64,000 nucleotides of DNA from Bremerella sp. TYQ1 (lineage in GTDB: Bacteria > Planctomycetota > Planctomycetia > Pirellulales > Pirellulaceae): the NCBI RefSeq assembly GCF_020150455.1, contig NZ_CP083740.1:3534001-3598000 (forward strand), in the 5' to 3' direction. A program made the translations under genes and the position numbers. Below the pieces are notes generated by a model, which saw only the letters and a list, made by a program, of their open reading frames with translations, was not told where the DNA came from and made no database searches. Position 1 is the first letter of the stretch; each line of letters starts with the position of its first letter. This document shows positions 24,398 through 42,345 of this stretch, piece after piece.

Positions 24398-24880
24398 ATG
24401 ACTCGAAGAATCACAACCATGCTTGCAGTAGCAGCAGTGACCCTGCACTGTCTACTGGGCTGTTGTGCCCATTGCATCCAAGCCTGCGGATGCCTTCAAG
24501 TCGCGGCTCAAAATTGTGAATGCCATCGTTGCGATGACGGCGAAATGACGCATCACGACCATCTCGAGCTTTGCTGTCAACCGGCCAGCAATATTCCAGC
24601 ATTTCATGAGAACGCGTGCATCGCCCATGAGGCTCCGCTGCAAGATCAACAATGCCAGGGCTGCGGGCTGTCGAAGTTTCCATTCATTCAAAGCGAATCT
24701 TCGCTGACGGGACTGATTCACGACGCCCAGTTCGATGCCCCGCTACCGCTGTTTGTCGATACGTCGGCGGTTTGCCTGGCCGATTCGCTTTATCGGCCGC
24801 ATCCGAAATTGCCCCAGCCGTCGCCGAAACCAAGCCCACACGTTCCGCTGCATCTATCCTTTTCCGTTCTCCTTCTTTAA
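24398..24880 (+). CDS. Cys/His-rich exported small protein
   Basis: I do not recognise a named family. The 160-aa protein starts with a hydrophobic signal-like segment ending LLGCC (lipobox-like, Cys22), followed by a dense cysteine cluster: 11 of its 15 cysteines lie between residues 18 and 60, with motifs CCAHC, CGC, CECHRC, then HHDH and CC. A QCQGCG motif follows near residue 90, and the C-terminus is Pro/His-rich. The pattern suggests an envelope metal-binding protein. First gene of a series with a thioredoxin-like protein and an ABC transporter, all sharing paired cysteines. An alternative ATG lies 21 bases in. A 7-bp inverted repeat GCCCTGG/CCAGGGC (24338-24366) lies just upstream. Confidence 0.6.
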   Translation: MTRRITTMLAVAAVTLHCLLGCCAHCIQACGCLQVAAQNCECHRCDDGEMTHHDHLELCCQPASNIPAFHENACIAHEAPLQDQQCQGCGLSKFPFIQSESSLTGLIHDAQFDAPLPLFVDTSAVCLADSLYRPHPKLPQPSPKPSPHVPLHLSFSVLLL

Positions 24881-25079
24881 CGGACGCATGCGGATGCCAT
24901 CGCGCGAAATCCGTTCGCCCAAGTCATTCGCCCCGAAATGGATCATTTAGCAAGCCTCGATCATCCCACGCTTGCGAATTCCTTATCACACACGATGTCA
25001 CGACGCAGTGCGTGTTTCCAACTCGTAGTGCCGATCGTAGACACGAACAAGAACCATGAACGAATTTAAGGATCAACTC

Positions 25080-25856
25080 ATGAAATTCCATCGCTATACG
25101 CTGCCGCTGCTGGCTTGTCTTTTCGCTTTCCCTGCCGCGACTGCGTTCGCTCAGTCGCCAGCGGCAACGCTGCAGCAAGCTCAGCAAGCCAATCAGTTCA
25201 CCTGCCTGGTTTTCTATCGAGACAATTCGGCCCCAACGCATAAGATGCTGGAAGTCGTCCAGAAAAGCGTTACGGCCCATGCTCCGAATCTCACCATGGC
25301 GACGACCAGTCTCGCGACACCGGAAGGACAACAACTGGCCGAGCAGTTCAAAGTTTCCAGAGCTCCCATGCCCATGACCGTTGTCGTGGCACCTAACGGC
25401 GCGGTGACGGGACTGTTCGCGAAGCAAGTCGCTCCGCAAAACGTCGCCTCAGCCATTGTTCCGCCCGTCATGATGGAATGCATGAAGGAACTTCAGGAGC
25501 AAAAGCTGGTGTTTGTTTGCTTGACGAAGTCGGAACAAGCAGCCGTGCCTGCTGGAGTTCGCGCGCTGCAGCTCGATCCAATGTTCAAGGATCGCATGGC
25601 ATTGATCGGCCTGAACGTCCAGGACACGACGGAAGCGAAACTGATGAACCAACTGAAAGTCGACGCCAATATGGTGAGCGGCCCCATGGCGGCGTTGATC
25701 GCCCCTCCTGGCGTTCTGGTGGGTCACTTCAATGCCACCGATTCGGCCGACCAAATTGCCGCGGCCATTCATAAAGCAGGCAAATGCTGCGATGACCCTA
25801 ACTGCAAGCATGGCGCTTCGGCTCAAGCTTCGCAGTCGACCACGTCCCGCCGATAA
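25080..25856 (+). CDS. exported double thioredoxin-fold protein with Cys/His tail
   Basis: Signal peptide (residues 1-25, ending TAFAQ). Two tandem thioredoxin-like segments can be read: residues about 38-125 (FTCLVFYRDNSAPTH, then SRAPMPMTVVVAPNG with the cis-Pro position) and about 135-228 (KLVFVCLTKSEQAAV, then GPMAALIAPPGVLVGHF). Neither has a CxxC active site; Cys42 stands alone. The C-terminus carries CCDDPNCKHG (Cys236, Cys237, Cys242, His244), resembling a metal-binding tail. Start: a 24-base longer form exists, but AAGGA lies eight bases before the chosen ATG. Followed after 31 bases by the permease gene. Function unknown; metal delivery or sensing is inferred. Confidence 0.6.
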   Translation: MKFHRYTLPLLACLFAFPAATAFAQSPAATLQQAQQANQFTCLVFYRDNSAPTHKMLEVVQKSVTAHAPNLTMATTSLATPEGQQLAEQFKVSRAPMPMTVVVAPNGAVTGLFAKQVAPQNVASAIVPPVMMECMKELQEQKLVFVCLTKSEQAAVPAGVRALQLDPMFKDRMALIGLNVQDTTEAKLMNQLKVDANMVSGPMAALIAPPGVLVGHFNATDSADQIAAAIHKAGKCCDDPNCKHGASAQASQSTTSRR

Positions 25857-25887
25857 GTTTGTGCATTTCACATAAAGGAATCTATCG

Positions 25888-27114
25888 ATGAATCTTCGAT
25901 CGATCATCTGGCACGAACTCACTTCTCGGCCAGGTACGTTAGTTTTCAATAGCCTTGCAATATTGCTAGGTGTCGCCGCCCTGGTGGCCATTCGCCACGT
26001 GACGGTTCATTCAGAAAAAGAGATCTCGCAGCAACTGACGAAACTGGGGGCGAACATTCTCGTGTTGCCCAAGGACGCTACGCTGCAAGATTACTACGCC
26101 GCCGATCAAAACGGAGGCACTTTGTCGGAAGAACATGTGGCAGAAATCTATCTGGCAGGTCTATCCGGAATCGAACAGGTTTCGCCTCGCTTAAACGTTA
26201 CGACCGACGTTCAGGGAAAATCGTTTGCCGTGACAGGCATCTTGCCGCAATCGGAAGTAGAAGCACTTGCGACGTGGCAAGCGACGACGATGTTCATGAA
26301 TGCCGAAGATTCTGGTTGTTGCCAGCGAGCCAACGTCGCTTCGACGGACGATCTTGCGAAACCGGAAGCACTCATTCAGCACCGTGCGATCCAGGATCTG
26401 AACAAGGACTCGATCGTGTTAGGGGCCGATGTAGCCCAAAAGCTGGAATGCGAAGCGGCCGATCGAGTTAACCTCTTCGGAGAAAGCTTTGTCGTTCAGG
26501 CCGTTCTTCCCGCGACAGGTACCGTCGACGATGGACGCATCTTTGCCCACCTGCACGAAGTCCAGCGGCTATCGGAATCGGGCGCAACGTGCAACGCGAT
26601 TGAAATTGTTGGCTGCTGCGAAGATGCTGCCGGTAGCTTGGTTCCTGAACTACAGAATCTGTTGCCGGAAGCTAAAGTCGTCACCATCTCTCAGGTCGTT
26701 CAAACCCAAGTGGGTGTCAACCAACTGATGGCGAAGACATCGTGGATTGTTCTCGCGGTTCTCGTGGTGGTTGGTGGTGCCAGTCTGGCAGGGGCGATCG
26801 CTGCCAACGTGCGCGAACGTCGTCGCGAGATCGGCACTCTGATGGCCTTGGGAGCGACGCCAAGTAACATTCAACAGTTGTTCCTCGGCAAAGCGTTCAT
26901 CCTGGGCATTGGTGCCGGAACGGTCGGCTGCGTGCTCGGTGTTGCTACGGCTTTGTTGGCAGGTCCAGCATGGGCAGGTGTTGCTATCTCTCCGTTGGCA
27001 GGCACTTCCGTATTGGCAGTGCTGATCGCTACGCTCGTGGCCCTTCTCGCGGCATGGATTCCGGCCCGAAAAGCGGCTCATCTTGACCCTTGCATCTGCT
27101 TCCGCGAGGTATAA
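25888..27114 (+). CDS. FtsX/MacB-like ABC transporter permease with vicinal cysteines
   Basis: Four transmembrane helices in the FtsX/LolC pattern: one at residues 17-36, a large periplasmic MacB-PCD domain (about 40-275), then three helices (about 280-305, 330-355, 370-392). The phrase REIGTLMALGATPSNI before helix 3 is a family hallmark. The periplasmic domain has paired cysteines Cys144-Cys145 (DSGCCQR) and Cys243-Cys244 (VGCCED), plus Cys188 and Cys235; the cytoplasmic end carries CIC. Such Cys pairs are not usual in MacB or LolC and match the Cys-rich neighbours. Works with the ATPase four bases downstream. Gene content recalls the accessory ABC transporter plus thioredoxin-like proteins of the Campylobacter P19 iron system, but no iron permease or P19 is present here. 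Confidence 0.8.
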   Translation: MNLRSIIWHELTSRPGTLVFNSLAILLGVAALVAIRHVTVHSEKEISQQLTKLGANILVLPKDATLQDYYAADQNGGTLSEEHVAEIYLAGLSGIEQVSPRLNVTTDVQGKSFAVTGILPQSEVEALATWQATTMFMNAEDSGCCQRANVASTDDLAKPEALIQHRAIQDLNKDSIVLGADVAQKLECEAADRVNLFGESFVVQAVLPATGTVDDGRIFAHLHEVQRLSESGATCNAIEIVGCCEDAAGSLVPELQNLLPEAKVVTISQVVQTQVGVNQLMAKTSWIVLAVLVVVGGASLAGAIAANVRERRREIGTLMALGATPSNIQQLFLGKAFILGIGAGTVGCVLGVATALLAGPAWAGVAISPLAGTSVLAVLIATLVALLAAWIPARKAAHLDPCICFREV

Positions 27115-27118
27115 GCCC

Positions 27119-27817
27119 ATGATTGAACTACATAACATCGCCAAACAGTATACGCGTCGAGGTCAATCCATCACGGCATTTTCGTCCGAGGAACTCACGA
27201 TCGCCGATGGCGAATACGTGGCAATCGTCGGACCAAGCGGTAGTGGAAAGACAACGCTTCTTTCCATGCTCGGCGGGATGCTTTCCCCGTCATCCGGTTC
27301 GATTACCATCGACGAGGTTTCGCTCTACGACCAATCGGTTTCCGCGCGATCGGCGTTACGTCGAGAGAAGATGGGCTTCGTTTTCCAAAGCTTCAATCTA
27401 ATCCCGTACCTGACGGCGCTTCAGAATGTTCAAGTTCCCTTAAGCTTGGCCAAGCTTCCGGCCAGCGAACAACTGGAGCGAGCAACCGAGATTCTGACAC
27501 AGCTTGGCCTGGCAGAACGTCTTCACCATAAGCCGTCAGAACTGAGCATCGGTCAGCAGCAGCGAGTTGCCTTGGCACGCACGCTGGTAAACGATCCCCA
27601 AATCATTTTGGCGGACGAGCCGACCGGAAATCTCGATCCAGACAGTCGTGAGGTTGTTCTCGATACGTTTGACGAATGCCACCGGCAAGGCCGAACGTTG
27701 ATTGTGGTCACCCACGATCCGAATGTTGCTCGAAGAGCGACACGACAACTCAAACTGGTCGACGGCAGGCTCATGAACGACGCCCGGGCTCAGACCCCGG
27801 TTCGTATTTCCGCCTAG
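27119..27817 (+). CDS. ABC transporter ATP-binding protein (LolD/MacB-like)
   Basis: Nucleotide-binding subunit for the adjacent permease. Walker A GPSGSGKT (38-45), Q-loop at Gln90, signature LSIGQ (142-146), Walker B ILADEP (163-168) and H-loop His199 (VVTHD) are complete. A LolD/MacB-like NTD lacking extra domains, 232 aa. The ATG chosen lies four bases after the permease stop; a longer frame into the permease gene is not needed. A strong terminator follows. Confidence 0.9.
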   Translation: MIELHNIAKQYTRRGQSITAFSSEELTIADGEYVAIVGPSGSGKTTLLSMLGGMLSPSSGSITIDEVSLYDQSVSARSALRREKMGFVFQSFNLIPYLTALQNVQVPLSLAKLPASEQLERATEILTQLGLAERLHHKPSELSIGQQQRVALARTLVNDPQIILADEPTGNLDPDSREVVLDTFDECHRQGRTLIVVTHDPNVARRATRQLKLVDGRLMNDARAQTPVRISA

Positions 27818-27848: not shown

Positions 27849-27878
27849 AACAAGGCCCGTATCAATACGGGCCTTGTT
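27849..27878. terminator. bidirectional terminator between convergent genes
   Basis: AACAAGGCCCGTAT (27849-27862) and ATACGGGCCTTGTT (27865-27878) form a 14-bp perfect stem with a minimal loop, followed by TGTTT on the plus side and preceded by A-rich sequence on the other. It separates the ABC transporter genes from the convergent cellulose-synthase-like gene. Confidence 0.85.
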
Positions 27879-38940: not shown

Positions 38941-41900
38941 GTGCTGGCTCGCTTTTTTATCGACCGCCCCATTTTTGCCTGGGTCATTTCGATCGTCATT
39001 GTCTTGGCAGGTACGATCTGCGTTTGGATCTTGCCGATTGCTCAGTACCCTGAAATCGCACCGCCGACGGTTTCGGTGACGTGCCAATATCCAGGAGCAA
39101 GTGCCGACGTGGTGGCCGAAACGGTCGCCGCACCGATCGAACAGCAAGTGGTCGGCGTCGAAAACGCCCTCTATATGTCATCGCAGTCGGCCAGCGACGG
39201 CAGCTATACGTTGACGGTGACATTCGCCCTGGGCACCGACTTGGACATGGCCCAAGTGTTGGTTCAAAACCGCGTCGCTCAAGCCACGCCGCTGCTTCCC
39301 GACGTGGTGAAAGCAACCGGTGTGACGACGAAGAAAAAGTCGCCGAACATCCTTCTTGCGGTGAGCCTGTTTTCCGACACCGATCCCGAAACCGGCAAAC
39401 CGATCCTCGACAATCTTTACCTCAGCAACTACGCCACGATTCAAATTCGCGACCAGTTGGCCAGTCTGGACGGTGTCGGCGACGTCGGCATCTTGGGCCA
39501 GCAAGACTACAGCATGCGTGTCTGGCTAAACCCTGATGCGTTGGCTTCACGCAGCATGTCGGCCGGTGAAGTGGTGGCCGCTCTCAAGGAACAAAACGTT
39601 CAAGTCGCGGCTGGACAAATCGGTCAACCTCCTGTACCCAAAGGCCAGGAGATGCAGTTGACGATGACCACACTCGGTCGTCTTCGTACGCCGGAACAGT
39701 TCGCGGACATTGTCGTCAAAACTGGTAGCGATGGCCAAATCACACGTGTCAGCGATGTTGGTCGCGTCGAACTGGGCGCGAAGAACCTGAATACGCTGTG
39801 TAGCTACGATCAAAAACCTTCGGTCGGGCTAGGGATCTTTCAGCTGCCGGGATCGAACGCTTTGGACGTCGGCGAACGTGTTAAACGTCGCATGGAAGAA
39901 CTCAAGGAACGTTTTCCGCCGGGCCTGAAATACGAAATCGGTTACGACACCACTCCTTTCATCGAGCAATCGGTCGAGGAAGTGTTCAAAACGCTACGCG
40001 ATGCGGTGATTCTCGTCGCGATCGTGGTGCTCTTGTTCCTGCAAGACTGGAAAGCGGTGATGCTGCCGCTGATTGACGTCGGCGTTTCGCTTATCGGTAC
40101 GTTTGCCATTATGGCGGTGATGGGTTTCACGCTGAATAACCTGACGCTGTTTGGCTTAGTGCTTGCCATTGGGATTGTGGTGGACGATGCGATCGTGGTG
40201 CTCGAGAACATCGAGCGTTGGATCGGCATGGGGTACAAAGTGCGCGATGCGACCATTCATGCGATGCAGGAAATTACCGGGCCGATTATCGCGATCACCC
40301 TCGTGCTGAGTAGTGTGTTCTTTCCGAGTGCGTTCCTGGGGGGCGTCACCGGACAGTTCTTCCGACAGTTCGCGCTGACGATTGCCGCGGCGATGTTGAT
40401 CTCTGCGTTGAACGCCATGACGATGACCCCGGCTCGTGCGACTTCGATCTTTAAGGACCCGAAGCCAGGCGAAGACCATACGCATCATCGCGAAGCACTT
40501 CCTTGGTGGGGCATCACCATCTTGGGCGGCATTTTGTTTGTATGGCTCGGAGGTATCTTCCTCGGCAGCTCCGGCGAACATGGCGAAACTAAGCTCGAAC
40601 TTTGGATGCAAGCCGCGTTGTTCATTCCTGGGGCACTGCTTGGCTTCTTTCTCGCTCACACAATCAACCGTGCGTTGGCGGCCGTGTTTGGCGTTTTCAA
40701 TCGAGCCTTCGACTGGGCCACTTCGGTTTACGGTCGAGGGATCGCTTCGCTGCTGCGTATCAGCTTTGTCGCGGTGGTGGTCTACGTTGGTTTGATCGGG
40801 CTAACAGGGTATGGATTTACCGTTGTTCCTGGTGGTTTTATTCCGACCCAAGACCAAGGCTATTTGATCCTGGACGTTCAACTGCCAGACTCCGCTTCGC
40901 GTGAACGTACCGACGGTGTCATGGCTCAAGTGGAAAAGATCTGTCTCGACACGCCTGGCATTTTGCACATCGTCGATGTCTCAGGTCAGTCGTTCGTCCA
41001 AAACGCAGTGACGTCGAACTTGGGTGGTGGCTTTATCGTGCTCGATGCTTTCTCCAAGCGAAACAGCCCCGATCTGACGGCCGAACACATCGCCATGGAA
41101 CTGCGGAAGAAATTCAGTCAGCTCCAAGACGCGCGTGTTTCGGTATTCGAGGCTCCGCCGATCAATGGTTTGGGGAACGCTGGTGGTTTCAAACTGATGG
41201 TCGAAGACCGCGGCGATAACGGCTACGCGGCGTTGCAAGCTCAAGCCGATCGCCTGGCGAGTATCGCGCTGGATCAGCCTGGCATTGTGGTCGCTTTCAG
41301 CAGTTTCCGAGCCAGTACTCCGCAGCTTTACGTCGACATCGATCGCGAGAAGTGCAAGAGCATGGGCGTGGAATTGGATGCCGTCTTCGAGGCCCTCCAG
41401 GTCTACATGGGTGGTTATTACGTGAACGACTTCAACCGCTTCGGACGAACCTGGCAGGTGAACGTTCAAGCCGATTCCCGGTTCCGTGTGAATGCGGAAA
41501 GCGTTCGTCAGTTCAAAGTGAAAAGTCGTACCGGCGAAATGGTTCCGCTCGGCACGCTTTGTACCATTGAAGACAGCGTCGGGCCGATGTTCATCAACCG
41601 CTATAACAACTTCCCCGCCGCGGCGATCAACGGTGTGAACGTGCCGATCGTCAGTACCGGGGAAGTGCTGAACATCATGAACGAGCTCGCTGCCGAGGAA
41701 CTTCCGGCGTCGATGGAAGCGGAGTGGACTGAAATCTCGTTCCTGCAGGAACAAGCCAGCCAGTTCACTTCGTTCAAGGATGTGCTGCAAAACCCGATCT
41801 CGGCTCTGATCGGGGCAGTCATTCTGGTTTACCTGATCCTTGCGGCTCAGTACGAAAGCTGGGAGCTCCCAGTCACCATTATTCTCGTCGTGCCGATGTG

Positions 41901-42345
41901 CGTTCTGGCGGCGTTGGCCGGGGTGATGATTGCCCACATGGACATGAACATCTTCGTGCAGATCGGGTTTGTGGTGCTTGTGGGGTTAGCGTGTAAAAAT
42001 GCGATTCTGGTGGTCGAGTTCGCCAAGGACTTGATGGAAAAGGAAAACAAACCGCTGCTTGAAGCGACCGTCGAAGCCTCGATCACGCGTCTGCGTCCGA
42101 TCGTGATGACCAGCTTCGCGTTCGTGCTCGGCGTCGCTCCACTGCTATGGGGTCACGGGGCCGGGGCAGAAATGCGATTCGCACTCGGCGTGGCCGTTTT
42201 CAGCGGGATGCTCGGCGTGACCGGCTTCGGTCTGATCTTCACCCCGGTGTTCTACTACGTCGTGATGAAGCTGCTGCAGAAGGAAGGGCTTTCGCCGATT
42301 CATACCCACCAGGCCGATTCCGAGCCTCCCCCAGAGGCCACGTGA
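38941..42345 (+). CDS. HAE1-type RND efflux permease (AcrB-like)
   Basis: Proton-driven inner-membrane multidrug pump. N-terminus FFIDRPIFAWVISIVIVLAG is a hallmark; proton-relay residues Asp415 and Asp416 (VVDDAIV) and Lys1019 (GLACKNAIL) are present, as are the porter motifs GFIPTQDQGYLI. Length 1134 aa exceeds the usual 1030-1060. The extra sequence lies between helices 6 and 7: a His-rich turn (GEDHTHHRE) followed by two extra hydrophobic segments at residues about 522-543 and 555-580. GTG start with GAAGGAA upstream. Operon with the AcrA-like gene (60-base gap) and closed by a strong terminator. Confidence 0.9.
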   Translation: MLARFFIDRPIFAWVISIVIVLAGTICVWILPIAQYPEIAPPTVSVTCQYPGASADVVAETVAAPIEQQVVGVENALYMSSQSASDGSYTLTVTFALGTDLDMAQVLVQNRVAQATPLLPDVVKATGVTTKKKSPNILLAVSLFSDTDPETGKPILDNLYLSNYATIQIRDQLASLDGVGDVGILGQQDYSMRVWLNPDALASRSMSAGEVVAALKEQNVQVAAGQIGQPPVPKGQEMQLTMTTLGRLRTPEQFADIVVKTGSDGQITRVSDVGRVELGAKNLNTLCSYDQKPSVGLGIFQLPGSNALDVGERVKRRMEELKERFPPGLKYEIGYDTTPFIEQSVEEVFKTLRDAVILVAIVVLLFLQDWKAVMLPLIDVGVSLIGTFAIMAVMGFTLNNLTLFGLVLAIGIVVDDAIVVLENIERWIGMGYKVRDATIHAMQEITGPIIAITLVLSSVFFPSAFLGGVTGQFFRQFALTIAAAMLISALNAMTMTPARATSIFKDPKPGEDHTHHREALPWWGITILGGILFVWLGGIFLGSSGEHGETKLELWMQAALFIPGALLGFFLAHTINRALAAVFGVFNRAFDWATSVYGRGIASLLRISFVAVVVYVGLIGLTGYGFTVVPGGFIPTQDQGYLILDVQLPDSASRERTDGVMAQVEKICLDTPGILHIVDVSGQSFVQNAVTSNLGGGFIVLDAFSKRNSPDLTAEHIAMELRKKFSQLQDARVSVFEAPPINGLGNAGGFKLMVEDRGDNGYAALQAQADRLASIALDQPGIVVAFSSFRASTPQLYVDIDREKCKSMGVELDAVFEALQVYMGGYYVNDFNRFGRTWQVNVQADSRFRVNAESVRQFKVKSRTGEMVPLGTLCTIEDSVGPMFINRYNNFPAAAINGVNVPIVSTGEVLNIMNELAAEELPASMEAEWTEISFLQEQASQFTSFKDVLQNPISALIGAVILVYLILAAQYESWELPVTIILVVPMCVLAALAGVMIAHMDMNIFVQIGFVVLVGLACKNAILVVEFAKDLMEKENKPLLEATVEASITRLRPIVMTSFAFVLGVAPLLWGHGAGAEMRFALGVAVFSGMLGVTGFGLIFTPVFYYVVMKLLQKEGLSPIHTHQADSEPPPEAT

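Follow-up and report, generated by a model that had tools for sequence, protein, structure and literature searches.

A conserved three-gene unit in the Bremerella genome

The genes described here lie in a 64,000-nucleotide stretch of the planctomycete Bremerella sp. TYQ1 (the window; positions 3,534,001-3,598,000 of the 6.66-Mb genome), and they encode an ABC (ATP-binding cassette) permease, its neighbouring ATPase and two cysteine-bearing secreted proteins. A preliminary description of the window had reported four consecutive genes, and the open reading frames (ORFs) bear this out, with all four on the + strand. CYS (24398-24880) encodes a secreted Cys/His-rich protein of 160 residues and TRX (25080-25856) a secreted thioredoxin-fold protein, for which the ORF start at 25056 is also possible, 25080 being the second ATG. 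These genes are followed by PERM (25888-27114), encoding the permease, and by ATP (27119-27817), encoding an ABC ATPase (PF00005, 8e-35) with its start ATG at 27119. TRX and PERM are separated by 31 bp and PERM and ATP by 4 bp, while the gap between CYS and TRX is 175 or 199 bp, depending on the TRX start. A terminator-like hairpin with 13 pairs, a 4-nt loop and a T-rich tail lies 3' of the operon (27849-27878, + strand), such sites not being enriched overall (four in the scan versus a mean of 4.2 in shuffled sequences). The same promoter and terminator scan found no sigma-70-like promoter. The four genes point away from a gene on the opposite strand that was recognised by eye as MoxR-like.

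We surveyed 97 loci, comprising the window, 16 loci from the window's genome and relatives, and 80 named contigs. Because only the best 80 of 282 relatives were kept from the named-contig scan, whose two search patterns contained no Cys, the set leans towards close kin; it is also partly redundant, with identical PERM proteins in L043 and L064 and in L070 and L073. In 95 of the 97 loci a TRX gene lies on the PERM strand no more than 1 kb upstream, and one was recognised by eye in L105; in L126, PERM begins at the contig edge. ATP lies 3' of PERM in 94 loci, and the other three (L068, L078 and L097) are at a contig end. The core unit consists of three genes, TRX, PERM and ATP, hereafter the cassette. 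A CYS-like ORF precedes TRX in only about 12 of the 97 loci, counting the window and three looser look-alikes, so the view that all four genes form one system had to be abandoned.

The family is patchily distributed in Planctomycetota: a search at E 1e-50 detected it in 24 of 294 genomes, and one at E 1e-40, with the homologue P0243 as query, in 37 of 392. Contigs labelled Riflebacteria, Deltaproteobacteria and Syntrophaceae carry it as well, these labels of metagenome-assembled genomes (MAGs) being taken as given. The named PERM nearest to that of the window in the PERM tree is from Blastopirellula marina DSM 3645 (79%). Plasmid-borne spread of the window's branch was rejected, since a plasmid search with the window PERM matched only a single Pelobacter plasmid (25%).

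An invariant cysteine triad in PERM and a three-Cys tail in TRX

Judged by its domain matches, PERM is a member of the FtsX/MacB-type ABC permease superfamily, scoring above the cut-offs for both FtsX (PF02687, 60.6 versus 25.5 bits) and MacB_PCD (PF12704, 43.4 versus 27 bits). Public records name its homologues 'ABC transporter permease', 'macrolide export' or 'cell division protein FtsX'. Assignment to MacB proper was rejected, with a PRK10535 score of 49.2 bits against a cut-off of 966 and the ATPase being a separate gene, as was assignment to LolCDE (TIGR02212, 52.2 versus 362.45; TIGR02211, 213.5 versus 307.75). The best NCBIfam models for ATP are LolD and MacB, both below cut-off.

Three PERM residues, C145 (codon at 26320-26322) and the vicinal pair C243-C244 (26614-26619), are all Cys in 337 of 337 homologues. 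Between them in sequence lies an HLH motif (26548-26556), in which H221 is conserved in 335 and H223 in all 337. The preliminary description had noted two CC pairs, at 144-145 and 243-244, and had looked to homologues with the same neighbours as a check: the second pair is kept throughout, whereas position 144 is Gly in 300 of 337 and Cys in only 22, leaving C145 as the conserved member of the first. Of 17 further loci, 16 have GCC at 243-244 and the remaining one has a TGA codon. The full triad is absent from outgroup permeases (0 of 15). Of 14 outgroup loci, L020, L026 and L027 were left out because no ORF was detected in them.

TRX combines a thioredoxin fold, with two halves by secondary structure, and a loose C-terminal tail, and the window protein lacks the active-site CxxC, in agreement with the preliminary description. 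The tail cysteines, encoded in the window by the codons of CCDDPNC (25785-25805), are a constant feature: at least three Cys occur in the last 45 residues of all 94 TRX proteins, and exactly three in 79 of 79 outside an arsenic-associated clade described below. The two kinds of tail also differ in His, with a median of two outside that clade and none in 14 of 15 proteins inside it. A CxxC motif between residue 41 and the tail is absent in 92 of 94 TRX proteins; when the first 40 residues are counted and the last 60 excluded, six of 94 contain one.

A probable selenocysteine variant

The TGA-bearing locus, L165, comes from a planctomycete MAG (G328, 77% complete) and contains TRX, PERM and ATP. 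The sole in-frame TGA of its PERM (codon 239; L165:1865-1867, on contig C204) aligns exactly to C243. Identity to P0243, which has Cys at this position, is 65% before the TGA and 62% after it, and the sequence beyond the TGA retains coding-type GC content by codon position. In addition, the genome encodes SelB (352 bits, cut-off 242) and SelA (523 bits, cut-off 268). The full-length kin P0243-P0245 carry CC at 243-244, and P0242, a 67% identical protein on another contig, is 238 residues long and ends at the same residue, possibly at a contig end. Based on this codon and its context, L165 PERM probably carries selenocysteine (Sec) at C243.

The best tRNA-Sec candidate of this 77% complete genome was classified as tRNA-Ser by ARAGORN. 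An exceptional Sec insertion sequence (SECIS) hairpin 3' of the TGA was rejected, as the structure there is unremarkable and 22 of 93 Cys-containing homologues fold as well or better; a known RNA element was likewise rejected, the best match being far below the gathering score. Among the matches listed in 392 Planctomycetota genomes, searched with stops read through, L165 was the only member with a TGA, and no further Sec members were found in 23 genomes of its class. The L165 TRX ends in SCGSG followed by TGA-AAG-TAG (L165:1021-1026), where the TGA is perhaps a second Sec codon and perhaps an ordinary stop. By term search, 'FtsX' is absent from a 2026 selenoproteome review (PMC13188914).

According to that review, Sec is common in redox sites (PMC13188914), and a Sec at C243 fits the main rival to the metal-based reading developed below. 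In this explanation, disulfides would be exchanged between the TRX tail and the vicinal Cys (or Sec-Cys) in PERM, and ATP hydrolysis would drive the repair or reduction of metal-damaged periplasmic thiols, metal itself not being the cargo. The thioredoxin fold of TRX and the vicinal cysteines speak in its favour, but the near-complete lack of CxxC upstream of the tail does not, nor does the Cys count of three or more, instead of two, in each protein, and the two tail kinds differ in His as ligands might.

Genes for metal and arsenic resistance surround many cassettes

Neighbouring genes were scored by tblastn with seed proteins. A CusA/CzcA-type RND pump was present in 47 of 97 loci and a heavy-metal P-type ATPase in 20, with either in 48; ACR3, ArsM or ArsC was found in eight and ArsR in 17. 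Counting any RND, P-type ATPase, arsenic, ArsR or CDF transporter gene, 65 loci were positive, compared with none of 20 loci of control FtsX permeases (from 11 of 60 relatives), one of which had a P-type ATPase match below threshold. Together with the invariant cysteines, these neighbours support the shared soft-metal or thiol function that had been proposed from the window alone. Seed assignments were confirmed with NCBIfam models for CusA/CzcA (three tested), ACR3 (two), ArsM (one) and Cd-type P-type ATPases (two). The Cd-type model, but not the Cu-type one, accepts two P-type ATPases of the metal branch, and both models accept a Pelobacter outgroup enzyme.

In a PERM tree built by a quick method and drawn with a midpoint root, the 17 arsenic/ArsR loci form one side of a single branch (SH-aLRT 98), and only one change between arsenic and metal contexts is seen when loci without scored neighbours are left uncounted. 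In L120, L122 and L124 the cassette is embedded in an ars operon, with ArsR, ACR3 or ArsC in the same gene run; the ACR3 genes of L120 and L122 were confirmed. L122 and L125 also encode ArsP-type permeases, which adjoin a DsbD_TM or ArsG-family gene (L122:13006-15443; L125:3899-6755).

The window's own genome holds three cassette copies. The window copy has no scored metal neighbours, the L033 copy is flanked by two RND genes, and the L034 copy belongs to the arsenic clade and is accompanied by ArsR. An RND-type permease gene (PF00873) is present in the window at 38947-42264, approximately 11 kb downstream of the cassette.

These surroundings bear on a further explanation, namely that the cassette exports a lipoprotein, peptide or metallophore in the manner of MacB or Lol, with the cysteines merely stabilising the fold. 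The FtsX and MacB_PCD domains of PERM and the LolD and MacB models that best match ATP are in line with such a role, as are the HlyD-type adaptor genes seen in many loci, though in the loci inspected these stand beside RND pumps. We nevertheless consider export highly improbable: the scores fall far below the curated MacB and LolCE cut-offs, the 20 control FtsX loci show no metal linkage, and purely structural cysteines would leave both the TGA at C243 and the matched TRX tail unexplained.

CYS is a lineage-specific addition

With 15 Cys in 160 residues (binomial P ~3e-10 at a background of 1.1% Cys, taken from a greedy ORF set of the window), CYS has the composition and the motifs CCAHC, CECHRC, QCQGCG and HHDH that were originally attributed to it. 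It also carries the sequence LLGC, which we take to be lipobox-like, and searches against Pfam and NCBIfam up to E 1 gave no match for it. The frame is conserved in related genomes, lying 5' of TRX in seven of seven same-genus loci of the window's branch and also preceding TRX in B. marina. Among four close loci (L037, L038, L040 and L041), nonsynonymous divergence (dN, 0.16-0.29) is lower than synonymous divergence (dS, 0.61-0.86). On this measure CYS is a real gene, fast-evolving yet under purifying selection, and by its distribution it is a lineage-specific addition rather than a constant part of the unit.

In 25 loci we noted 31 short ORFs that are rich in Cys and His and carry a GCC box behind a hydrophobic segment (for example L042:14977-15531, L091:2239-2703 and L103:2284-2784). 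Many resemble CYS, some lie 5' of RND pump operons and a few may be spurious; several have a common hydrophobic C-terminus (QVWRL or LHLSLAVLTL).

A possible role in metal(loid) handling

On balance, we think it probable that TRX, PERM and ATP constitute a dedicated ATP-driven periplasmic metal(loid)-thiol module serving detoxification. Transfer of a soft ion would be the simplest reading because it accounts jointly for the invariant PERM triad, the thiols of the partner protein and the Sec variant at the triad. In MacB/FtsX machines, cytosolic ATP hydrolysis drives movement of the periplasmic domain, and a three-thiol site is suited to As(III), Sb(III), Pb, Cd or Hg. TRX may act as a carrier without CxxC that holds soft metal ions in its flexible three-Cys tail, and the periplasmic domain of PERM would provide a putative matching site (C145, C243 and C244, with HLH nearby in sequence). 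Driven by ATP hydrolysis, this domain would then move, accepting metal from TRX or delivering metal to it. In metal loci the ion could subsequently be passed to a CusBA-type RND pump and elsewhere to another acceptor, a direction suggested by the neighbours being efflux genes. The cargo would be divalent soft metals in the metal branch and arsenite or antimonite in the arsenic branch, and where CYS precedes the cassette, in the window's genus, its product probably serves to bind or buffer that same metal.

Several observations weigh against this proposal. No scored gene of the metal, arsenic, ArsR or CDF kinds was found in 32 of the 97 loci, short contigs being part of the reason, and besides the window copy, five of seven other same-genus, same-branch loci have no scored metal gene in the stretch read. 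Two outgroup permeases have a CxC covering the 243 and 244 columns, without C145. In addition, disulfide-type genes occur in three arsenic loci (L122 with DsbD_TM, L124 with DsbD_TM and a thioredoxin, L125 with an ArsG-family gene), which would suit the redox explanation; on the other side, a DsbD_TM homologue was detected by tblastn in only two of the 97 loci. Weighing these points with those from the TRX tail and the Sec variant, we regard a thiol-redox module as rather unlikely.

The metal(loid)-thiol reading points to an undescribed ATP-driven handling of toxic metals outside the inner membrane. More tentatively, the cassette could represent a new class, in which a mechanotransmission ABC permease with a three-thiol soft-metal site loads or strips the three-thiol tail of a thioredoxin-fold carrier, with a Sec-Cys upgrade in at least one lineage and diversification into an RND-linked heavy-metal branch and an ars-operon arsenic branch; we see this fuller scheme as possible, and hold it with some reserve. 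If the proposal is true, arsenic and heavy-metal resistance would include a widespread module that has so far gone unnamed, and a metal ion or its carrier would be a new cargo for type VII ABC machines.

Comparison with known systems

No description of a TRX-PERM-ATP module was found in the literature searched, which consisted mostly of listings and the openings of abstracts. The terms searched for do not appear in PMC12013277. Arsenic-branch cassettes such as L120, L122 and L124 sit inside ars operons; the main text of a review on ars systems (PMC6205960) contains neither 'ABC' nor 'FtsX' by term search.

The P19/FetMP iron system (Campylobacter CJJ81176_1649-1656; E. coli plasmid copy L151) resembles the cassette in having an FtsX-type permease, an ATPase and a thioredoxin-like protein in a metal-linked operon. 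It differs in having two permeases, a TlpA-type thioredoxin, FTR1, P19 and DUF2318, and no Cys triad. The likeness to P19 suggested in the preliminary description holds in part: a plasmid search with the arsenic-branch PERM of L124 returned E. coli plasmid permeases with approximately 24% identity over residues 2-403, and the one match inspected belongs to a P19-type iron operon, but the triad is not shared. Membership was rejected, as tblastn searches of the 97 loci (E 1e-4) with E. coli proteins and a Pelobacter DUF2318 protein as queries detected no FTR1, P19 or DUF2318. A role in metal uptake or iron handling, in which the ABC part would perform a loading or reduction step for import, draws on the same gene kinds and on profile comparisons in which PERM is remotely similar to P19-type permeases along its full length (hhalign 99.6 and 99.0% over ~350 columns, values that other FtsX permeases might equal). 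With the import components unmatched, the triad missing from P19 permeases, resistance genes as the scored neighbours and TRX matching the P19 TlpA-type protein poorly (16%), we judge uptake quite improbable. Conversely, if the metal(loid)-thiol reading is true, it would suggest what the ABC portion of the P19 system might do; PMC6083913 describes the substrate of that portion as unknown.

FtsX permease-ATPase pairs without the triad are also found in heavy-metal islands of Pelobacter pPRO1 (L149, with DUF2318, a P-type ATPase and CusA) and of a Vibrio plasmid (L150, with ArsR). In L153 and L155, other FtsX permease and ATPase pairs are followed by look-alikes, recognised by eye, of a molybdate-type binding protein and permease.

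The Sec-assisted organometallic (SAO) ABC system likewise has Sec- or Cys-bearing ABC parts, a thioredoxin-like protein and a tie to metals, but a table in PMC13188914 lists substrate-binding subunits for it, unlike the cassette. Membership was rejected, with SaoP (NF040733) and SaoT (NF040730) finding no match in 44 PERM (E 0.001) and 39 TRX (E 0.01) proteins. Finally, PERM has its superfamily and domain order in common with MacB, LolCDE and FtsEX, the type VII ABC or mechanotransmission systems, and is set apart from them by scores far below their curated cut-offs, by the Cys triad and by a thioredoxin-fold partner. Taken together, what is new in the cassette relative to these systems is the Cys triad, the TRX tail, the two metal branches and the probable Sec.

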